DNA from: an uncultured delta proteobacterium
GTDB taxonomy: Bacteria > RBG-13-61-14 > DRUE01
Assembly: GCA_903930515.1 (NCBI GenBank)
Contig: CAIYYW010000285.1
Coordinates: 1-9,352, forward strand
Direction of reading: 5' to 3'
DNA length: 9,352 nucleotides
This document shows, piece by piece, positions 1 to 9,352 of the stretch. Position 1 is the stretch's first letter. Every line of letters begins with the position of its first letter. Made by a program: the position numbers and the translations under genes. The notes under the pieces were generated by a model, which saw only the letters and a program-made list of their open reading frames with translations, did not search any database and was not told the origin of the DNA.

Positions 1-2771
1 AAAGAAAGCTTGACCGTCTTGATTTCAAAATGCCCCACCGAAATGGTAACAGAGTTTGCAGCCGCGTTCAAAGGCTTCGGGTTAAGCTCAAGCAGGTCCG
101 TCTCGGCCGCGGCCACAATCTTGAGCGCCGGATTGACTTGCAGGGTGGCGCTGATGTCCCTGCCCTCCCCCTCCACAATCCGGATGATGATGGAACCGTC
201 GTCTTCCGCCTTCTTCACCTGCGCGATATAGGCGCTGTCGCTCTCAAGCGAGAACCAACCGGCCTGGGCCGGGAGTTTGCCCGAATGAGGAGACGTAAAA
301 ACCGCGGCCGCGGGCGTGTTGTAATTATAGGCGGCTTGAGACACTTTCCCCTCTCGCCATCCGCCCTGGTGGGGATAGAGCGCGAGATGGGCCCAATGCT
401 CGCCGGCGTCGGTCTGGGGGAAGGCGATGATTTTTTCCAGCGGGTTCACCTCCCGGGCTGCCCCTGCCGCGGCAGGGTATTTGGCGTTCTTGATGATGCT
501 CATCCTGAATCCTTTGCCATCCTCGGTCAGGCTCAATCCGTGTTTGCCGAAGTTGAGCAGGGCCACTCCGAAATCGTTATTGGAAAGGTCCGCCCATTTT
601 CCCACCGGCATTTCCGTGCGCGCTTTGTCCCAGGGTATGGTCGGATGGGTTGACCGCTCAATCACGGCGTAAGGGATTTCCGCGGCGACCTTGTCGGTCA
701 CGACCGTGGTATTGAACTCCAGCTTGACCAGGGTTTCCTTCCAGCGCAGATCGGTCCAGGTCAAAAATTCCACCAGGGGCGACCCGGCTGAGACCGTGAT
801 CCACTGCTTGAAGCTGCTCGGCCCGGCCCGGCGTTCCACCAGGACGCGGCTGAAAACCGGGCCTTGGCTGTCAATTTTCACGGAGCAGGATTCCGGGACC
901 GGGACCGGATGGGCCTGGTAATCCGCGGCGAGGTTCCAGGCGGAATATTTTTCAGGCCGGTCCTGGAAGGCAAGAATCCGGTTGCTCGGTTTTGAGATTA
1001 ATTCCCGGTCCGAGCTTTTGTCATAGAGCGAAATCAGCAGCCCGTTTTTTTTGCTCACCGCGATTCTCACCAGCTCGTTTTCCAAAGTGACCGCGTCTGC
1101 GGATTCGCTCGCCAGAGGCCCCTGAAGACGGCTGGACTGGCCGCGCTTGACCAAAAAGATTTTCCAGCCCAGGGCCGGCAGGGTATCCGGAATGAACGAT
1201 AAAAAAGTCCCCCCTTCAGGGCTGGTTGAAACCTGGCTCGCCAACTCCGCTCCCTGCGGATTGAAAACCTGAAATTCACCCGGAGTGACTTTCATTCCGA
1301 CCGGGTCTCTCCGCTCCCATCCGAGCGGGTTGAAAACCAGGATCGGCTCTGCGCCCGGGAGGCTGGTCCGGCTCTCAACATTATCGGCGAGATAAACGAG
1401 CGAGGAATTGAGAGCGGCCTCGGTTAATCCCTGGATTTGCCGATACTGAACCCGGGCGTCCGCGTAAACCTCGGGAATGCTGGACCCGGGAAGGATGTCG
1501 TGGAACTGGTTGAAGAGGGCGAGCTTCCAGGCCCGGACCAGGTCGCTCATCGGGTATCGGCCTCCCAAGAGGAAAGCCAGACTGGAGGCGGCCTCCGCGG
1601 TCCTCAGGTTTGCCTCGGCCTTGCGGTTGGCGCGCTTGATCCATTCCTCGGTGGTCAGAACCCCCTGATGGAAATCCAGATACAGTTCATCGTTCCAGGT
1701 CGGGAGCCGGTCGGAATATTGGTCAAAAGCCGCGAACAACCGGGGCGCAGTGGCCAATTTGCCGAACCCCAACTCCTGCAGGGCCAGTTGCCGTTCAATC
1801 TCAAAATCTTTCGGGCCGTTGCCCCCGTCTCCGGCTCCGTAAAAAGTCCCCATCACCGGGATCAGGTCTTGGCTGAGTTTATCGCTGATTTGTTCCGGCG
1901 CGGTCAGATAGCCCGCAACCAACCGCTCGCCCGGTTTCAAGAGCAGACGGGTGTCGCGGAATCCCTTGCCCACCCTTTGGCTCAAATCCCCGAGCGGGGC
2001 GAGCAAATAATCTTTGCGCCGGGGAGGCCGGAACTCGGAGTCTTTAAAATAGTTTTTCTTGCCGGGAGTGGGACAGATATAAGTCTGGATCCGGGAACCG
2101 TCCGGTGCCTGCCAGAAGAAAATATGGAACGGGAAGATATTGTAGTCGTTGAGGGCCGGCTTGTAAGTCCAGAGATATTTCTGTCCGGCTTTGGCCAGGA
2201 ATTGAGGCAGGTTCCAGTTGAAGCCGAAGGAATCTGGAATCCAGGCCACATCGCTGATATGCCCGAAGTTCTGAAGAAAAAACCTCTGGCCGTAAAGCTG
2301 CTGCCGGACCAGGGATTCCCCTTCCGGCATATTGCAGTCCGGCTCCACCCACATCCCTCCCACCAGGACCCACCGGCCGTCTTTTTCCGCTTCCTGGATC
2401 TCGCGGAAAAGATCGGGCCGGGTGTCCTTGATCCATTGGTAATATTGCGGAGAACTCTGATGGAAGCTGAAGCCCGGAAAGCGCCTGCTGTTTTTCAGGG
2501 CGTTGGCAAAAGTTTTCGGGCACTTGTAATCGCGGGTCTGGCGCCAGCGCCAGAGCCAGGCCGCGTCTATATGCGACTGGCCGACGGAATAGATCAAGAG
2601 TTGTTCCGGCTTAAGCCCCACTTTCTTGAGCTCGCGGGTATAGTCGTTTTTTATCCACTGGACCAGCTTCGGGCTGATTTTTCCAGGATTTTCTTCCCGG
2701 CAATTGAACAGGGACAGGCCGAGAATAAAGGCCAGGGTTAAAGCCAGGGAAATTTTAAATGGCTTTTTCAT
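1..2771 (-). CDS. Exported GH38 alpha-mannosidase, downstream copy (3' end cut by window edge)
   Basis: Reading leftward from ATG 2771-2769, 923 codons are open to the window edge without a stop. The last residues, FEIKTVKLS, align with FEIRTLKLK near the end of the neighbouring paralogue, so only a handful of codons are missing. GH38 enzymes are retaining, zinc-dependent alpha-mannosidases. Visible here are the HxD zinc motif in QSHIDAAW (H67, D69), the nucleophile motif PDSFGFNWNLPQ (D180), a GAGDGGNGP loop (D315, candidate acid/base by family position), WNDELYLDFHQG, and the zinc histidine H424 in NQFHDILPGSS. The N-terminus is a signal sequence (MKKPFKISLAL...) ending in LSLFNC. C24 could be a lipidation site, but N at -1 is not a standard lipobox residue. 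Identity to the upstream copy is about 60% by hand count over the N-terminal 200 residues and about 70% over the last 240. The SD is weak (only GGGA-like purines before the ATG), unlike most upstream genes. The family is near certain; the natural substrate is unknown. Confidence 0.94.
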   Translation of the reverse strand, partial: MKKPFKISLALTLAFILGLSLFNCREENPGKISPKLVQWIKNDYTRELKKVGLKPEQLLIYSVGQSHIDAAWLWRWRQTRDYKCPKTFANALKNSRRFPGFSFHQSSPQYYQWIKDTRPDLFREIQEAEKDGRWVLVGGMWVEPDCNMPEGESLVRQQLYGQRFFLQNFGHISDVAWIPDSFGFNWNLPQFLAKAGQKYLWTYKPALNDYNIFPFHIFFWQAPDGSRIQTYICPTPGKKNYFKDSEFRPPRRKDYLLAPLGDLSQRVGKGFRDTRLLLKPGERLVAGYLTAPEQISDKLSQDLIPVMGTFYGAGDGGNGPKDFEIERQLALQELGFGKLATAPRLFAAFDQYSDRLPTWNDELYLDFHQGVLTTEEWIKRANRKAEANLRTAEAASSLAFLLGGRYPMSDLVRAWKLALFNQFHDILPGSSIPEVYADARVQYRQIQGLTEAALNSSLVYLADNVESRTSLPGAEPILVFNPLGWERRDPVGMKVTPGEFQVFNPQGAELASQVSTSPEGGTFLSFIPDTLPALGWKIFLVKRGQSSRLQGPLASESADAVTLENELVRIAVSKKNGLLISLYDKSSDRELISKPSNRILAFQDRPEKYSAWNLAADYQAHPVPVPESCSVKIDSQGPVFSRVLVERRAGPSSFKQWITVSAGSPLVEFLTWTDLRWKETLVKLEFNTTVVTDKVAAEIPYAVIERSTHPTIPWDKARTEMPVGKWADLSNNDFGVALLNFGKHGLSLTEDGKGFRMSIIKNAKYPAAAGAAREVNPLEKIIAFPQTDAGEHWAHLALYPHQGGWREGKVSQAAYNYNTPAAAVFTSPHSGKLPAQAGWFSLESDSAYIAQVKKAEDDGSIIIRIVEGEGRDISATLQVNPALKIVAAAETDLLELNPKPLNAAANSVTISVGHFEIKTVKLS

Positions 2772-2786
2772 TCCCGATTTTCCCAA

Positions 2787-2862
2787 GGGGATATTCCCCG
2801 ACCCCAGCCGAAGGATTTCCGGCCGGGCGATCCCTCCCGCCCGAAAAATATCCCGCGGCCGG
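2787..2862 (-). other. Structured intercistronic spacer between the two mannosidase genes
   Basis: The 96 bases between the stop of the upstream mannosidase (2868) and the start of the downstream one (2771) hold several inverted repeats. CGGGCG 2824-2829 pairs with CGCCCG 2838-2843 across an 8-nt loop. CCGGCC 2819-2824 can pair with GGCCGG 2857-2862 outside it. GGGGA 2787-2791 pairs with TCCCC 2795-2799 across a 3-nt loop, ending 15 nt before the downstream ATG. None is followed by a clean U-run in the minus direction, so a strong intrinsic terminator is not supported. An mRNA structure that separates expression of the two copies is an inference. Confidence 0.5.
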
Positions 2863-2867
2863 TTTGC

Positions 2868-5660
2868 TCACTTCTCCGTGATCTTTAGTTTCAGGGTCCT
2901 GATTTCAAAATGGCCGACCAAAAGGGTCAGGGAGTCTCCGCTCGATTTCAAGGGTTTGGGATTCAGCTCCAGTAAATCGGTTTCCTGCGCAGAGCCGATC
3001 TTAAGCATCGGGTTCACTTTCAAGGTCGCGCTGGTGTCCTTACCCTCTCCCTCCACGATCCGGATGATGATGGAATCGTCATCCTCCGCCTTCTTCACCT
3101 GCGCGATGTAGGCGCTGTCGCTGCTCAGCGAGAACAGGCCGGCCTCGGCCGGAAGCGTTCCGGAATGTGCCTTGGCGGAAACGACCACTGCCGGCGTGTT
3201 GTATTCATACGCGGCCCGGTAAACCTTTCCCTGCTGCCAGCCGCCCTTATGCGGATAGAGCGCGAGATGCGCCCAGTGCTCGCCCTGGTCGGTATGGGGG
3301 TTGGGGATGGCGAGGGAAGACATATTGACATTCTTGGCTTCCGGCGCCGGGGTCGGGTAGCGCGCGGCCTTGATGATGCTCATCCTCCAGCCGGTCCCGT
3401 CCTGGTTCAGGCTGAAACCGTATTTGCCGAAATTGATCAGGGCCAGTCCGAAATCCTGGTTGGACAGGTCGGTCCATTTTTCCACCGGCATTTCCGTGCG
3501 CGCCTTGTCCCAGGCCACTTTCGGATGGGTGGACCGCTCAATCACGGCGTAGGGTATTTCCGCGGCAACCTTGTCGGTCTCAATGACGGTATTGAATTCC
3601 ACCTTGACCAAAGTTTCCTTCCAGCCCATATCCGCGCGGGTGATGATGTTGAGCAGGGGCGAGCCCATAGAGATGGTGAGCCATTGTTTGAAATCGGTCG
3701 GGAACCCCTTCCGCTCAATCAGGACGCGGACGAACAGGGGCCCCTGCGATTCCACTTTCAGCGCGGTAACTTCCGGCACGGCCACCGGGTTGCTCAGGTA
3801 ATTTTCCGAGATATTCCAGGCCGAATATTCCTTGGGCTGATCCTTGTAAGCCAGGATTTTATTGCTCGGCCTTTTCAATAGTTCCTTGGCCAGCCGCTTG
3901 TCATAGAACGAATTGAGCAGGCCGGATTTCCTGTCCACCGTGAAGCTGACCAGATCGTTCTCAACCTTGATTACGCTCTTGCCGTCATTGACTTGCGGAC
4001 CGGAGAGCGCGCACGCCGCCCCGGCCTTCAGATAAAAAGTCTTCCAGCCCAGGGCCGGGAGCGAGCCGGGCGCGAAATATAAAAAATCGCCGCCCTCTTC
4101 CGCGGCCGCGGTTTGGCTGGGCAGTTCTTTTCCGGACCGGTCAAAGACCTGGAATTTTTCTCCGGCCTTGACCGGGTATTTCACCGGATCGCTTCTTTCC
4201 CATCCCAGCGGGTTAAAGACCAGGATCGGTTCCAGGCCTGCTTGCAAAGGCTGGGTATTGATTTTGGCTTCCAGGCCGCCGAGTTCGGACTGGATGATCT
4301 CGTTGCCGTCCTTTTGAATCTGGTTGTGCTGCTCCCGCGCGTCCTGGTAAACCTCCGCAATGGACGAGCCGGGGAGGATGTCGTGGAACTGGTTTAAGAG
4401 GATCACCTTCCAGATCGCGGTGATCCTGGCCAGCGGGTAATCAATCCCGAACAAAAACCCGGCGCTGGACACGGCCTCAGCTGTGCGCATCAGGGCCTCG
4501 GCCTTGCGGTTGGCGCGCTTGATCCATTCCTGGGTGGTCATCACCCCCTGGTGATACTCCAGATACATCTCGTCGTTCCAGGTGGCGACCCGGCCGGAAT
4601 ATTTTTCCAGCGCGGAGTAAAGCTGGTCCGCGGTTCCGATTTTTCCGTAGCCGAGTTCCTGGAGCGCAAGTTGTTTTTCAATCTCCATCGGGAGCGGTCC
4701 GTGTCCGCCGTCCCCGAGCCCGTAGAACGCTCCCACCACCGGCATAATTTCATTGCTCAGGTTTTCCTCAATCGCCTGCGGAGTGGTCAGGTAATTTGCG
4801 GTCAGTTTTGATCCCGGCTTGAGCAACAATCTGGTCTCGCGGAAGTTCGCGGCCAACTGCATTCCGCCCACTCCCCCGCCCGGTTTGAGCAGGTAGTCTT
4901 TTCCGGAAAAGGGCTTCAGCTCCTGGAAGGGAAACCAGGTCGGGAGCGGCACAATCGGGCAGATGTGGGTCAGGACCTGGGAGCCGTCCGGGGCCTGCCA
5001 TTGAAAAAGGTGGAAGGGAAAGATGGTGTCCTTGTTCCAGGTCAGCTTGGAGGTCCACATATATTTGCAGCCGCTTCTCGCCGCGAACTGGGGCAGGTTC
5101 CAGTTGTATCCGAACGAATCCAACAGCCAGGCGATGTCCGTGGTATGCCCGAATTTCTGCAGGAAATATCTCTGGCCGTAAAGGAATTGCCGGACAAAGG
5201 ATTCCCCCTCCGGCAAATTGCAATCCGGCTCCACCCACATCCCCCCGACCGCTTCCCATCTTCCCTGCTTCTCATACTGGACGATCTTTTGGAAAATCGC
5301 CGGGTCATACTGTTCAATCCACTCGTAATATTGAGGGGCGCTCTGGTGGAAATTAAAGGACGGGTAGGTCTCAATGTTCTGGATCGCCATTCCGAAGGTG
5401 ATCTTGGTTTTGGACTCCGCGGTCTGGCGCCAGCGCCATCTCCAGGCCGCGTCAATATGGGACTGGCCGATGGAAAAAACCTGAAGGTCCTCGGGCTTCA
5501 AGCCCGTGCCCTTCAAGCCGGAAAGGTATTGCGCCTTGGTGGTCCGGATGGTTGACTCGCTGACCTTTCCCTTTTCCTGCTGCTCTTCCGCCCGCGCAAA
5601 CAGCCCAAGCGTGAAGACCAAGACCAAACCCGACAGAACCAGCTTTTTTCTCCAGTTCAT
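2868..5660 (-). CDS. Exported GH38 alpha-mannosidase, complete upstream copy (930 aa)
   Basis: This is a complete zinc-dependent retaining alpha-mannosidase of family GH38, predicted to release terminal alpha-mannose in the periplasm or outside the cell. Residues 1-24 form a Sec signal peptide (MNWRKKLVLSGLVLVF... ending ARA before EEQQ). The N-terminal catalytic domain, roughly 58-340, carries GQSHIDAAW (zinc ligands H68 and D70), the nucleophile motif LDSFGYNWNLPQ (D181) and GLGDGGHGP (D317, probable acid/base). The middle helical part, about 360-445, has WNDEMYLEYHQG, KRANRKAEA and the zinc histidine H426 in NQFHDILPGSS. A long beta-rich C-terminal domain follows, about 480-925. Length is normal for bacterial members. 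The start is fixed by AGGAGGT (5667-5673), 7 nt before the ATG, and by a 4-base ATGA overlap with the 77-aa gene upstream, which implies translational coupling. All expected catalytic and metal residues are present, so the enzyme is probably active. The exact glycan (N-glycan, mannan or other) cannot be read from the sequence. Confidence 0.96.
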   Translation of the reverse strand: MNWRKKLVLSGLVLVFTLGLFARAEEQQEKGKVSESTIRTTKAQYLSGLKGTGLKPEDLQVFSIGQSHIDAAWRWRWRQTAESKTKITFGMAIQNIETYPSFNFHQSAPQYYEWIEQYDPAIFQKIVQYEKQGRWEAVGGMWVEPDCNLPEGESFVRQFLYGQRYFLQKFGHTTDIAWLLDSFGYNWNLPQFAARSGCKYMWTSKLTWNKDTIFPFHLFQWQAPDGSQVLTHICPIVPLPTWFPFQELKPFSGKDYLLKPGGGVGGMQLAANFRETRLLLKPGSKLTANYLTTPQAIEENLSNEIMPVVGAFYGLGDGGHGPLPMEIEKQLALQELGYGKIGTADQLYSALEKYSGRVATWNDEMYLEYHQGVMTTQEWIKRANRKAEALMRTAEAVSSAGFLFGIDYPLARITAIWKVILLNQFHDILPGSSIAEVYQDAREQHNQIQKDGNEIIQSELGGLEAKINTQPLQAGLEPILVFNPLGWERSDPVKYPVKAGEKFQVFDRSGKELPSQTAAAEEGGDFLYFAPGSLPALGWKTFYLKAGAACALSGPQVNDGKSVIKVENDLVSFTVDRKSGLLNSFYDKRLAKELLKRPSNKILAYKDQPKEYSAWNISENYLSNPVAVPEVTALKVESQGPLFVRVLIERKGFPTDFKQWLTISMGSPLLNIITRADMGWKETLVKVEFNTVIETDKVAAEIPYAVIERSTHPKVAWDKARTEMPVEKWTDLSNQDFGLALINFGKYGFSLNQDGTGWRMSIIKAARYPTPAPEAKNVNMSSLAIPNPHTDQGEHWAHLALYPHKGGWQQGKVYRAAYEYNTPAVVVSAKAHSGTLPAEAGLFSLSSDSAYIAQVKKAEDDDSIIIRIVEGEGKDTSATLKVNPMLKIGSAQETDLLELNPKPLKSSGDSLTLLVGHFEIRTLKLKITEK

Positions 5661-5890
5661 TTGGAAACCTCCTGCTCCAGATTCTGATTTATTTTCAGGG
5701 AACGCCGATACGCGGTATAGGCCGCGCTCAAATGACAGATCCAGCCCAAAGTTCCCCCGGACCCGATCCAGAAACCGGGGGTGATGATCAGCCAGAAAAT
5801 GCCGCGCCAGATGTCGTGGTTATAAAACTGGCCCACGCCCGGAATGATCAGGCTGAAGACCGTGGATGTGGTCGGGTTTCGCTTTTCCAT
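5657..5890 (-). CDS. Small TM2-like membrane protein (77 aa)
   Basis: The 77-residue protein has a short basic N-terminus and a hydrophobic stretch at about 10-38 containing SLIIPGVGQFYNHDIWRG, which resembles the PGxGQFYxG signature of TM2-domain and related small membrane proteins. A second hydrophobic segment spans about 40-60 (WIGSGGTLGWICHLSAAY), and a short charged tail (RRSLKINQNLEQEVSK) follows. The predicted topology is a two-helix hairpin in the inner membrane. Its TGA overlaps the ATG of the downstream mannosidase (ATGA). Its own ATG lies 7 nt after the TAA of the 39-aa gene, and the bases before it (TAATCCTTGA) have no recognisable SD, so translation probably depends on ribosomes finishing the previous gene. 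The function is unknown. The TM2 resemblance is by motif only. Confidence 0.82.
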   Translation of the reverse strand: MEKRNPTTSTVFSLIIPGVGQFYNHDIWRGIFWLIITPGFWIGSGGTLGWICHLSAAYTAYRRSLKINQNLEQEVSK

Positions 5891-5897
5891 TCAAGGA

Positions 5898-6017
5898 TTA
5901 TTTATCTTGAGAGTGTAGCTTGCTGAAATGCAAATACAGGGCGTAAGTGATGATAAAAGAAAAAATGAACACCCCGGCCGGGATGATGATCCCGAAAATA
6001 ATCGTGCTCCGACTCAT
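5898..6017 (-). CDS. Tiny single-pass membrane protein (39 aa), candidate transporter accessory subunit
   Basis: The ATG at 6017-6015 opens a 39-codon frame ending in TAA 5900-5898. The product starts MSRSTIIFGIIIPAGVF and is one long hydrophobic helix (about residues 5-29) with a short polar tail ending KLHSQDK. It is convincing despite its length: AAGGAGG sits 7 nt before the ATG, and the ATG overlaps the TGA of the preceding 53-aa gene by ATGA. Very short one-helix partners are known for other sodium-coupled transporters, such as MetS in the MetP/MetS pair, and the operon position after a symporter suggests a comparable role. There is no sequence proof of that; the alternative is an unrelated small membrane protein. 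Confidence 0.8.
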   Translation of the reverse strand: MSRSTIIFGIIIPAGVFIFSFIITYALYLHFSKLHSQDK

Positions 6018-6175
6018 TTGCCCGCCTCCTTAGCTTTTTTGATCTGCTCCCGTTTTTTATAGTTATACCAGGCAAAGATCAATCCCATGAACGAGGCGAT
6101 ATACGCCAGACTCATCCCGATCAGCTTGCCTCCCCCGGACTGCACGAAATTCATCCAGACATTTTGATCGCTCAT
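6014..6175 (-). CDS. Small single-pass membrane protein (53 aa)
   Basis: The frame runs from ATG 6175-6173 to TGA 6016-6014 and gives 53 residues beginning MSDQNVWMNFVQSGGGKLIG. One membrane segment (about 18-38, LIGMSLAYIASFMGLIFAW) is followed by a strongly basic tail (YNYKKREQIKKAKEAGK), which by the positive-inside rule puts the C-terminus in the cytoplasm. A GGAGG-type SD lies 7 nt before the ATG. Both ends overlap neighbours by ATGA: the start with the 95-aa gene, the stop with the 39-aa gene. The organisation (one helix plus basic tail) resembles small scaffold subunits such as CcmD, but no haem-export genes are nearby, so that assignment is not made. An accessory subunit of the co-transcribed symporter is the favoured inference. 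Confidence 0.82.
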   Translation of the reverse strand: MSDQNVWMNFVQSGGGKLIGMSLAYIASFMGLIFAWYNYKKREQIKKAKEAGK

Positions 6176-6459
6176 TTCCGTTCCTCCCATTTGGACACGC
6201 TTTCCACCTGCTTCAGGAACTCCGCCTGTCTCCGCTCGTATTCGTCGGACACCGCCCTCAGTTTCGGGTCAATCACGAAATACATCACCAGGGTGGCGGC
6301 GATCCCTCCGATCAGATACACCCACCCGATCGGTCTCTCCAAAAGCACCAGCACCAGTCCGAGCGAGACGAAGATATAAGAAACCGGCGACATAATGCAG
6401 GCCACCAATTCCTCCCATCCCCATTTCTCAGCGCTTTCCGGCGTATAGGTCTTTGCCAT
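6172..6459 (-). CDS. Two-helix membrane protein with charged C-terminal helix (95 aa)
   Basis: The 95-residue protein has a polar N-terminus (MAKTYTPESAEKWGWEEL), two adjacent membrane segments at about 20-40 (CIMSPVSYIFVSLGLVLVLL) and 44-63 (IGWVYLIGGIAATLVMYFVI), and a highly charged, probably helical tail (DEYERRQAEFLKQVESVSKWEERK) that could form a coiled coil. AAGGAGG precedes the ATG with about 5 nt spacing after GGAGG. The TGA overlaps the next gene's ATG. It is the first gene after the symporter, 86 bases downstream. Several SSS symporters pair with about 100-aa two-helix partners (YjcH with ActP, YhdT with PanF, DUF4212 proteins), so topology and position fit an accessory role. I see no clear sequence match to those families. 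Confidence 0.87.
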   Translation of the reverse strand: MAKTYTPESAEKWGWEELVACIMSPVSYIFVSLGLVLVLLERPIGWVYLIGGIAATLVMYFVIDPKLRAVSDEYERRQAEFLKQVESVSKWEERK

Positions 6460-6482
6460 CTTCTCCTCCTTATCTTGCTCGC

Positions 6483-6535
6483 GATCCTGCTTTGCAGGAT
6501 CACTCGTGGCGCAGACACTCTTGTCCGCGCGCCGC
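6483..6535. repeat. Two back-to-back palindromes between symporter and small-protein genes
   Basis: The first is a perfect 8-bp inverted repeat, GATCCTGC 6483-6490 and GCAGGATC 6494-6501, with a TTT loop. The second is imperfect: arm 6506-6516 (GTGGCGCAGAC) and arm 6523-6535 (GTCCGCGCGCCGC) flank ACTCTT. It pairs as 3 bp, one mismatch, then 4 bp. Both lie in the 86-base gap between the symporter stop and the 95-aa gene. No U-run follows in the minus direction, so a processing or stabilising mRNA element, or a dispersed palindromic (REP-like) repeat, is more likely than a terminator. Confidence 0.6.
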
Positions 6536-6545
6536 TTTTATCTTC

Positions 6546-8132
6546 TTACTCCTTGATCAGTCCCATTGCCAGGGCTTTCTTATGGATCGGTCCCCACCAC
6601 CCGATTGGACGGGTCATCACATAATATTTGACCAGATGCGCCTCATCGTCCGGCTTGGTGAAGAGGGTAACCAGAATATAAATCGGGAAGGTCAGCACCA
6701 TCAGGATCCAGAACTGCTGATAGTCGGGCATATCTTTGGGAAGGATGTTGAACGCCGGAAGCACCCAGACGATCAGCCAGGAGATGCCGAGGTTGGCGAT
6801 CCAGGATGCCAGGTATCCCCAGGCGTTGAACCTCCACCAGACCACTTGCAGGATGCTGGGGAGCCAGATCCCCGCGGCCTGGAGCCAGAGCGCGAAGATC
6901 AGCCAGGAGGTGATGTCCTTCATCAGGGAGCCCATAAAGAAGGACCCGATCAGGAGGATGAAGGTTGAGAGCCGCGCGATCCAGATCAGCTTTTGCTCGG
7001 TCGCCATGGGGTTGATGTAATGATGATAGAGGTCTCGGGTGAAATAGGACGCGCCCAGGTTCAAGTGCGATGAGATGGTTGAGAAATGGATTGCGAGCAC
7101 CGCGGCGAAGAAGAAGCCGACCATTCCCATCGGGAGTTTTTCAAAGGCCATCTGGTACCATCCCATCTCGTATCTGCTCACATCCGTGATGTTCGGGTTA
7201 AGCACGAAGAAGGCCAAAATCGCCACGGCCCAGAGGGCGTTTCTGGTCAGGACCAAAAACCCTCCGGCCCAGATGGAATAGGCCGCGTCGCGCACGGTCC
7301 TCGCGGACTGGATCCGTTGCGCCTCCGGGTACCAGTCAATGAAATTCCCCATTCCCAATCCGCCCACCGCGGCCATCACCAGCATGGTAATAAACCATAG
7401 GATGGGAAAATCCCCGCTGGTCCAGCCGGTGAAGGCGAACGGGTTCAGCCGCCAGGCCTGATCCATTTGATTGAGCTTGTCTATGATCGCGTGCGGTCCC
7501 CCGGCGTACATCATCGCCCAGACGGACACGATGATGATCACCAGGAACGCGATCACTCCCTGCTGGAAGTCGGTCATAATCACGCCCCAGTATCCCGCGG
7601 AAAGAACATAAATCGCGCACACGGATGAGAAAACGACTAATCCGATCCATTCATCCCAGCCGAACACCAAATGGCAGACCTTGCCCATCGCCATCCCGAC
7701 CCAGCCGAGCACGAACATATTCATAAACACCTGCCAGCCGGCCAGCCAGCCGCGCAGCATTTCCGAGCCTAGCCCGGAATAGCGCAGGCTCTGCCATTCC
7801 GCCATACTCATCGCCAGCGAGCGCCGGAAGATCCTGGTGGAAACGAACGCGCTGATCGCGCACCACAACGAGAAGAAGGTGTACCAGAGGCCGCGTAATC
7901 CCTGCTTGTAGATCACCCCCCCGATCCACATCGGGGTGTCCGTGGCCGTGTGCGTGGCGTAAACCGAGGTGGCCGGAAGCCACCAGGGAAGACCCCTCCC
8001 GGCCAGGAAGAAGTCGGATTCGCTGCGCTTGCCCAGGTTGTAAAACAACATCCCGCAGCCGATCATCAAGATCAGGTAGGCGACGGTCCAGAACCAATCC
8101 AAAAACTGAAAAGTAACCTTAAACTCCTCCAT
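6546..8132 (-). CDS. Sodium:solute symporter, SSS family (528 aa)
   Basis: This is an inner-membrane secondary transporter of the SSS family (TC 2.A.21, LeuT fold) that couples solute uptake to the sodium gradient. The protein is hydrophobic throughout, with about a dozen membrane segments, and has a normal length for the family. Diagnostic segments are SESDFFLAGRGLPWWLPATS (residues 37-56), typical of SSS TM1-TM2, and FFAAVLAIHFSTISSHLN (about 341-358), followed by YFTRDLYHHYINP, matching the conserved helix with the second sodium site (S351/T352 by position). The chosen start is ATG 8132-8130 with GGGAGG (8138-8143) 5 nt upstream. The frame extends to 8222, but that part has no SD, lies across the promoter and reads as non-membrane filler. 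The substrate is unknown. Co-transcription with two exported mannosidases makes a released sugar plausible, but SSS members also carry amino acids, vitamins and organic acids. Confidence 0.94.
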   Translation of the reverse strand: MEEFKVTFQFLDWFWTVAYLILMIGCGMLFYNLGKRSESDFFLAGRGLPWWLPATSVYATHTATDTPMWIGGVIYKQGLRGLWYTFFSLWCAISAFVSTRIFRRSLAMSMAEWQSLRYSGLGSEMLRGWLAGWQVFMNMFVLGWVGMAMGKVCHLVFGWDEWIGLVVFSSVCAIYVLSAGYWGVIMTDFQQGVIAFLVIIIVSVWAMMYAGGPHAIIDKLNQMDQAWRLNPFAFTGWTSGDFPILWFITMLVMAAVGGLGMGNFIDWYPEAQRIQSARTVRDAAYSIWAGGFLVLTRNALWAVAILAFFVLNPNITDVSRYEMGWYQMAFEKLPMGMVGFFFAAVLAIHFSTISSHLNLGASYFTRDLYHHYINPMATEQKLIWIARLSTFILLIGSFFMGSLMKDITSWLIFALWLQAAGIWLPSILQVVWWRFNAWGYLASWIANLGISWLIVWVLPAFNILPKDMPDYQQFWILMVLTFPIYILVTLFTKPDDEAHLVKYYVMTRPIGWWGPIHKKALAMGLIKE

Positions 8133-8309: not shown

Positions 8310-8672
8310 ATGAGCAAAAAAGTATTGATGGTGGATGACAGTCCGACCGTAGTGGAAGCCGCGTATGACGAGCTGAATGAAAAAGGATACGAGGTGGAGA
8401 TCGCATATAACGGTATGGAAGCTTTGGAGATGCTGGAGCTGTTTATCCCGGACATCATCATTATGGACATTGAGATGCCCAAGCTGAAAGGGTATGAGGC
8501 TGCGGAACAAATCCGGAAAAATCCCAAGCTGTGCAAAATCCCCCTGATCGCTCTCACCGGGGTGTCTCCCCAAACCCTGGGGGACAAGGCCAAATATTTT
8601 GACGCCTACCTGGTCAAGCCCTTCGGCTTTGAGGAAATGATCCAACTGGTGGATAAACTGCTGAACCGATAA
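8310..8672 (+). CDS. Stand-alone response-regulator receiver domain (120 aa, CheY/DivK-like)
   Basis: This is a single receiver domain with no output domain. It is phosphorylated by a histidine kinase and signals through protein contacts in the cytoplasm. All key residues are visible: the acidic pair D9-D10 (VLMVDDSP), the phospho-acceptor D53 (IIIMDIEMP), T83 (IALTG) and K103-P104 (LVKPF). The protein ends soon after alpha-5 (DKLLNR), so it is complete. The start is ATG 8310, with AAGGGG (8299-8304) 5 nt upstream. A TTG five codons earlier is in frame but would place the SD inside the gene. A TATAAT at 8287-8292 is present but sits too close to the SD to be a convincing promoter. No histidine kinase is in the window. 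The gene is divergent from the symporter unit, and whether it controls that unit is unknown. Confidence 0.95.
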   Translation: MSKKVLMVDDSPTVVEAAYDELNEKGYEVEIAYNGMEALEMLELFIPDIIIMDIEMPKLKGYEAAEQIRKNPKLCKIPLIALTGVSPQTLGDKAKYFDAYLVKPFGFEEMIQLVDKLLNR

Positions 8673-8727
8673 GCGGATTCAGTCAAAGGGGTCAATGGGG
8701 CATTATAATGAAAAAGTTTAAGCGGCT

Positions 8728-9201
8728 TTGGGTAATCGGTTTTTTTGCTTAACCGCAATTTTTATCCTTTCCTTTTCAGCCAACGCGCAACAACATCTGC
8801 CGGGCGCGAATTTCTGGGGAGACTCGGACAATGCCCTGATTGACAACCCGGATATGGGCGCGATGGAATTGGGACTGGCCTTCCAGGACCCGGGATACTG
8901 GCTTGTTACGGACAACCAGGCTCCGGGCGGGGTTCGCTCCCGGACCACCCTCTGGCAGGACCTGGATGGAAACGGGCTTTTAGATGGCCCGGATTACGGC
9001 ATTATCCAGGGCTGGCTGATCGGAGATTTCAGCGACCTGTCCGGCGATCCCATTTCCCTGGATGCGGAATTTTACGCCTTGACCGTGGATTCGGGAGATT
9101 CAGTAACTGTCCAGGCCAATGGCCTGTCCGGCTACGGTAATTTGCGGCCGGGATGTCTTGGACGGAACGGTTTCGGGTTATTACTCGGATATGGCCTATG
9201 A
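8728..9201 (+). CDS. Exported protein with dockerin-like calcium-loop repeats, reading frame disrupted
   Basis: The frame opens at TTG 8728 and gives a signal peptide (FFCLTAIFILSFSANA before QQHLPG), so the product is probably secreted. Two related segments follow. WGDSDNALIDNPDMG (residues 30-44) and WQDLDGNGLLDGPDYG (76-91) resemble dockerin or EF-hand calcium loops. In the second, D78, D80, N82, D86 and D89 fill loop positions 1, 3, 5, 9 and 12; the first loop is one residue short. A segment like a bacterial Ig-type strand (SVTVQANGLSGYGNLRPG) comes next, then the frame ends in an atypical tail (CLGRNGFGLLLGYGL) while coding sense continues in another frame. An ATG at 8708, with GGGG 7 nt upstream, starts MKKFKRLWVIGFF and hits a stop at 8750; one extra T in the T7 tract 8740-8746 would join it to this frame. 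Possible explanations are sequencing error, pseudogene or a real TTG start. Confidence 0.6.
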   Translation: MGNRFFCLTAIFILSFSANAQQHLPGANFWGDSDNALIDNPDMGAMELGLAFQDPGYWLVTDNQAPGGVRSRTTLWQDLDGNGLLDGPDYGIIQGWLIGDFSDLSGDPISLDAEFYALTVDSGDSVTVQANGLSGYGNLRPGCLGRNGFGLLLGYGL

Positions 9202-9352
9202 ATATACTGCAGAGCCGATAGACGGGGGCTGGGCGCCGGTCCGGGTGGTTGCCCCGCCGACCTGCTCCGTGGGCCAAGAAATAGATGTTGACGTTTATAT
9301 CCCGGATGATTTTCAATTCGGGCTTTTTAATACCCGGTTTCCGACCCGGTTG
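9107..9352 (+). CDS. Continuation of the dockerin-like exported protein in a shifted frame (partial)
   Basis: The frame beginning with codon 9107 is open to the right edge, and from about 9152 it reads as sensible extracellular protein: DVLDGTVSGYYSDMAYEYTA, then a proline-rich joint (VRVVAPPTCSVG) and QEIDVDVYIPDDFQFGLF, which looks like the first strands of a beta-sandwich (Ig-like or cohesin-like) domain. It lacks its own plausible start and follows directly on the sense of the upstream frame, so it is taken as the rest of the same gene after a one-base shift somewhere in 9107-9198, perhaps at GCGGCCGGG 9144-9152. The gene is also cut by the window edge. Confidence 0.55.
   Translation, partial: MSRPMACPATVICGRDVLDGTVSGYYSDMAYEYTAEPIDGGWAPVRVVAPPTCSVGQEIDVDVYIPDDFQFGLFNTRFPTRL

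Follow-up and report, generated by a model that had tools for sequence, protein, structure and literature searches.

An SSS symporter gene conserved with three genes for tiny membrane proteins: a probable multi-subunit transporter associated with alpha-mannosidases

On the minus strand of the window, by which we mean the whole stretch of DNA analyzed (9,352 nucleotides of contig CAIYYW010000285.1), an SSS symporter gene is followed by genes for four small membrane proteins, the first three of which are called sm95, sm53 and sm39 below, and by two alpha-mannosidase genes (Table 1). A sequence-only reading of this DNA had pointed to ATGA overlaps joining the 95- to the 53-aa gene, the 53- to the 39-aa gene and the 77-aa gene to the mannosidase gene, and to strong Shine-Dalgarno sequences ahead of the first three small genes. 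The overlaps are present in the sequence, and the Shine-Dalgarno runs were confirmed as aaggaggag (sm95), gggagga (sm53) and aaggagg (sm39), with gggagg preceding the symporter gene; no such run was found before the 77-aa gene. Compared with the nearest relative, pN/pS was 0.30 for sm95, 0.33 for sm53 and 0.25 for sm39. Because of this purifying selection (pN/pS 0.25-0.33) and of conservation across phyla, the three frames are real genes. The same gene set was found in 3 of 3 genomes of the window's phylum. The two alpha-mannosidases of the window cluster together; as tandem GH38 paralogues (positions 1-5660), they have a signal-peptide-like N-terminus in one case and a lipobox-like N-terminus in the other.

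Table 1. Genes on contig CAIYYW010000285.1 considered in this analysis.
Feature	Coordinates	Strand	Basis
SSS symporter core, 528 aa	6546..8132	-	Pfam SSF match, 13 predicted TM helices
sm95, 95-aa two-helix membrane protein	6172..6459	-	HMM matches beside symporter; fusions; fold overlay
sm53, 53-aa single-helix membrane protein	6014..6175	-	ATGA overlap with 95-aa gene; conserved across loci
sm39, 39-aa single-helix membrane protein	5898..6017	-	ATGA overlap with 53-aa gene; conserved across loci
77-aa DUF5683/TM2-like membrane protein	5657..5890	-	DUF5683 E 7.5e-9
Secreted GH38 alpha-mannosidase	2868..5660	-	Pfam GH38N E 4e-63; N-terminal signal-like sequence; ATGA-coupled to 77-aa gene
Second, paralogous GH38 alpha-mannosidase, lipobox-like N-terminus	1..2771	-	Sequence reading; contig end cuts gene

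The symporter matched PF00474 (SSF) with an E value of 4.2e-26 (92 bits against a cut-off of 22.8). The core fold predicted for the symporter alone matched SGLT2 (Z 30), vSGLT (Z 29) and NIS (Z 27), and in this model the protein has the LeuT-type fold of SGLT/NIS/SiaT. Residues S351 and T352 are invariant among orthologues and align with S364/S365 of vSGLT, which we take to be the Na2-site hydroxyl residues in TM8. By its SSF domain, its fold and its Na2-site hydroxyls, the protein is a member of the SSS family (TC 2.A.21), and its transport is probably coupled to Na+. vSGLT, the Na+/galactose symporter of Vibrio, resembles it in fold and in the Ser/Thr pair of the Na2 site but is a single chain of 14 helices; moreover, the sodium-site residues are kept in the window family, whereas the galactose ligands of vSGLT (e.g. 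Q69 and E88) are replaced. Paralogues of the symporter in the window's own genome (25-33% identity) had none of the small proteins alongside. Symporters of KSB1/Calditrichota (L084:6013-7941, L083, L085-L088 and similar loci) have some 100 additional residues in the loop that follows TM5; this insert has a sandwich-like motif, VEYSTDNGATW, and may be an extracellular domain close to where the substrate enters.

Scanning of genome contigs yielded 80 symporter loci with 62-88% identity to the window symporter, labelled Aminicenantes, Ignavibacteria, Calditrichota/KSB1, Neomarinimicrobiota, Rhodothermales, Gemmatimonadota, Krumholzibacteriota, Latescibacterota and others. Together with further genome searches, this gave 128 non-redundant symporter loci (98% level), beside which the small proteins were sought by tblastn and family HMMs. 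A complete contiguous trio in the order 95-53-39 was present in 114 of the 128 loci, from many phyla, and the order was the same in the 15 loci where the trio lies before the symporter. The observation that the sequence-only reading had named as fatal to its proposal, namely small genes absent or unordered beside close homologues, was not what the survey returned. In many lineages the genes of the set are joined by tight translational overlaps, and the linkage of symporter and trio stays across many phyla while the flanking genes vary.

The remaining loci fall into three groups. Nine of the 128 are interrupted by a contig end, region end or N gap, and the apparently partnerless symporters among them were rejected as exceptions: L074 and L075 are broken off by N gaps, and L012, L025, L038, L055, L069, L073 and L146 lie at or close to contig ends. 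In another four (L037/L186, L054, L072 and L184), the 53-39 pair is found nearby on the opposite strand. Only one locus, L076 from Glassbacteria, is a true exception, with a symporter without the set. In the same Glassbacteria genome, L140:3868-4407 encodes a larger, apparently multi-helix membrane protein containing an sm53-like domain, with no symporter nearby.

The search was also run in the reverse direction. Employing the sm53 family alone, we obtained clear matches, usually one per genome, and the symporter lay beside sm53 in 76 of 77 strong loci, part of these genomes being shared with the first set. In a fresh batch of Bacteroidota, the symporter was beside sm53 in 13 of 13 cases, all arranged SSS-95-53-39. 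Weak sm53 matches in three genomes (G306, G465 and G500), with no symporter nearby, were dismissed as chance. Among 80 genomes of the Gemmatimonadota group, symporter and sm53 co-occurred with a Fisher p of 6e-19. There were three mismatches (G037, G043 and G075); in G043 and G075 the symporter is present as a fragment only, at or near contig ends or truncated. The count stays at one per symporter, two copies of sm53 being present in a genome with two symporter loci.

Natural fusions indicated how the set is divided. In 31 loci, sm95 continues in frame from the C-terminus of the symporter (...RYYVMTRPLGWWGPVHREAVRRGLI...RRTWTPEQADEWTREDW...). In four loci, sm53 and sm39 form one chain (L137-L139 and, from the order to which the window belongs, L133), with an added hydrophobic stretch that would serve as an extra helix keeping both parts N-out/C-in. 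In the window's own order (L133), the fusions thus reduce the operon to two genes, SSS-95 and 53-39. In the four split loci, SSS+95 and 53+39 each stay whole. Fusions and split loci taken together divide the set into two modules, SSS+95 and 53+39. No fusion of sm53 or sm39 to the symporter was found among the surveyed loci, so the link of these two proteins to the symporter is one of neighbourhood and co-occurrence only.

These data bear on two other explanations of the gene set. The small genes might form a conserved operon of unrelated membrane function that is co-transcribed with the symporter by convenience, as could be argued from the lack of a family shared with known symporter partners. 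We regard this as highly improbable, since many species have sm95 as part of the symporter chain, co-occurrence over 80 genomes is near-perfect, and the linkage is kept over many phyla despite varying flanks. Alternatively, sm95 alone could be a permanent subunit and 53+39 a separate complex (a regulator, assembly chaperone or protease adaptor) controlling the level or activity of the symporter. The division into two modules by the fusions, the Aminicenantes-type loci that hold the 53-39 pair apart on the opposite strand and the sm53-like domain of a larger Glassbacteria protein encoded apart from the symporter are all in keeping with such a separate complex. However, the count of one per symporter, including two sm53 copies with two symporter loci, the tight translational overlaps in many lineages and the close packing suggested by the conserved helix faces argue against it, and we think it unlikely.

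The helix faces are seen in the conserved positions of the small proteins. sm95 has a conserved cytoplasmic tail motif, IDPKL..S..YE..Q, sm53 the motif GMSxAYxxSxxGxxxAW and sm39 the motif GIxIPxxxFxxSFxxTxxLYRHFS. Conserved residues occupy one face of the helix in sm53 (M21, A24, S28, L32, A35 and Y39; p 0.006) and in sm39 (G9, P13, F17, S20, T24, L27 and F31; p 0.0002), a one-sidedness that would be expected for helices packed against a partner. According to the positive-inside rule, sm53 is predicted to be N-out/C-in in 71 of 71 sequences and sm39 in 63 of 67, and for sm95 a hairpin, both ends inside, is predicted in 54 of 56. Mutual information with APC over 114 paired sets (Neff 57) gave top pairs scattered over many helices and dominated by phylogeny, and was uninformative on contacts between the proteins.

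The position of sm95 was approached by structure prediction. Using AlphaFold2 with a 70-row alignment, we modelled the natural symporter-sm95 fusion of locus L059. The model had a pLDDT of 83 and a pTM of 0.86, and both sm95 helices, with pLDDT 93-97, were among its most confident parts. Based on VIA-align, it matched vSGLT and SGLT1/2 with Z 23-27. Most of the alignments end at model residues 565-583, within the first sm95 helix (549-573) or shortly beyond it, and they extend to residues 659-672 of SGLT1/2, that is, their last helix, and to 545-558 of vSGLT; those with NIS, SiaT, CHT1 and SMCT1 go no further than about 487-508. The window symporter alone, taken as a control, gave alignments ending at about 550-571 of SGLT and at 516-519 of vSGLT. 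The fusion reaches the last SGLT helix and the core alone does not; sm95 thus adds, in these models, a helix that SGLTs carry in-chain. Judging from the alignment ranges, the first helix of sm95 would fill the place of TM13 of SGLT/vSGLT.

In SGLT2, TM13 interacts with the single helix of the auxiliary protein MAP17, which supports folding and activity and is considered to belong to the transporter's fixed scaffold (PMC10803289). The likeness of the window system to human SGLT2-MAP17 (PDZK1IP1) lies in the SSS-fold symporter, probably for a sugar in the window system too, and in the alignment of the core+sm95 model to SGLT1/2 through TM13. It differs in having three putative small subunits rather than one, in the location of TM13, which is in-chain in SGLT2, and in the small proteins themselves: the sm95, sm53 and sm39 profiles gave no match to MAP17 in searches of all PDB chains with E up to 1, and sequence searches of the three proteins against PDB returned nothing relevant.

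Two bacterial pairs offer a further parallel. In E. coli, the gene of the SSS symporter ActP overlaps that of YjcH (DUF485), a small membrane protein of two helices, although yjcH precedes actP and is a single partner; the gene of PanF, likewise an SSS symporter, overlaps that of the small membrane protein YhdT (DUF997), again a single partner. YjcH and YhdT had been named beforehand as comparable partners, but the small proteins are not recognizable members of either family in hmmscan or hhalign. Of the model scans, none found a covering Pfam or NCBIfam family for sm95, sm53 or sm39. When 63 + 61 + 59 small-protein members were scanned with hmmscan, DUF485 was matched by only 4 of 59 sm39 members (best E 0.0046), DUF997 was not among the families listed, and DUF4212 and DUF3311, two families of small proteins linked to symporters, were not among the best 25 families per scan, more families than these being matched by sm95 and sm53. 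In hhalign, YjcH scored at most 4% probability against the three profiles, and YhdT 6.5% against sm95 and 0.3% against sm53; homology of sm95, sm53 and sm39 to YjcH, or of sm95 and sm53 to YhdT, was rejected as not significant.

SSS transporters are usually presented as single-chain proteins. In the literature searched, from which subscription literature was mostly absent, we came upon no account of an SSS system with several subunits, and the terms accessory, auxiliary, subunit and YjcH were not found in the text of a 2021 review of prokaryotic SSS transporters (PMC7918813). A symporter with one small partner is already known; to judge from this search, a symporter with three conserved partners and natural fusions has apparently not been described.

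The neighbourhood of the symporter points to its substrate. The commonest Pfam families among same-strand neighbour genes were GH92 and GH38, which are exo-alpha-mannosidase families unrelated to each other, and each is the commonest neighbour in different lineages. One or the other was present in 35 of the 128 loci, the other 93 being without either in the stretch examined, where most flanks are short. In the Gemmatimonadota group, GH92 was found in 33 of 34 symporter-positive genomes versus 7 of 46 negative ones (p 3e-14), and it lies less than 10 kb from the symporter in 26 of the 34, mostly 0.8-1.6 kb away. GH38 was rejected as a phylum-wide marker in this group, its association with the symporter being negative. 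From the mannosidase linkage, the substrate is likely mannose or a small mannoside. Mannose has also been proposed as the substrate of another SSS protein, the putative Na+/mannose symporter ManP-II of Shewanella, a role biochemically untested according to the review (PMC7918813). It is possible, though we doubt it, that the complex is as described and imports another product of glycan breakdown, the mannosidases belonging to a broader glycan operon. In favour of this reading, the neighbours also include sulfatases, ROK kinases, GH2 and peptidases, the substrate pocket differs from that of vSGLT, and 93 of the loci show no mannosidase. Weighing against a non-mannose substrate are the prevalence of two unrelated exo-alpha-mannosidase families in different lineages and the strong co-occurrence with GH92.

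With a probability of roughly three in four, we propose that the system is a multi-subunit member of SSS, made up of a core+sm95 module and an sm53+sm39 module and importing mannose or a mannoside with Na+. The 528-aa protein would be the 13-helix transport core, with the first helix of sm95 replacing the TM13 that is in-chain in SGLTs and vSGLT, so that core and sm95 form one module. sm53 and sm39, with one N-out/C-in helix each, would be the second module, packing on the first, probably near the TM13-like helix. By analogy, they may be placed like MAP17 on TM13 of SGLT2 and may stabilize a scaffold around the moving helices. Periplasmic exo-alpha-mannosidases of GH38 or GH92 would release mannose or a small mannoside for import with Na+. 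The most specific form of this proposal, to which we give about even odds, is a heterotetramer of core, 95, 53 and 39, with the counterpart of the SGLT C-terminal helix encoded separately and with two MAP17-like single-helix subunits, serving as a mannose importer across many phyla and representing a bacterial counterpart of SGLT-MAP17 built from unrelated parts. Three as yet unnamed families of very small membrane proteins would thereby gain a likely partner, and many uncultured phyla a likely sodium-driven mannose importer. Dissection of the bacterial complex could reveal the roles of C-terminal and auxiliary helices, with bearing on the drug target SGLT2-MAP17.

The 77-aa gene is not counted as a subunit. 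The initial proposal had been a symporter with up to four small partners; gene order, co-occurrence and natural fusions strongly support it for 95, 53 and 39, and it fails for 77, which is confined to the nearest relatives. This gene encodes a DUF5683 member (Pfam, E 7.5e-9) and comes after the transporter genes in the nearest relatives of the window, its start being visible in locus L091. It was absent from all other symporter loci searched, which ruled it out as a fourth subunit; judged by this distribution, it is a lineage-specific passenger of the operon.

At the other end of the operon, a divergent gene (window 8310-8672) adjoins it and encodes a stand-alone CheY-like receiver protein. 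Beyond it, positions 8709-9352 encode a secreted protein with a dockerin/EF-hand-like repeat (DLDGNGLLDGPDYG), the frame of which is apparently broken near its start, at a seven-T run, and again near 9150.
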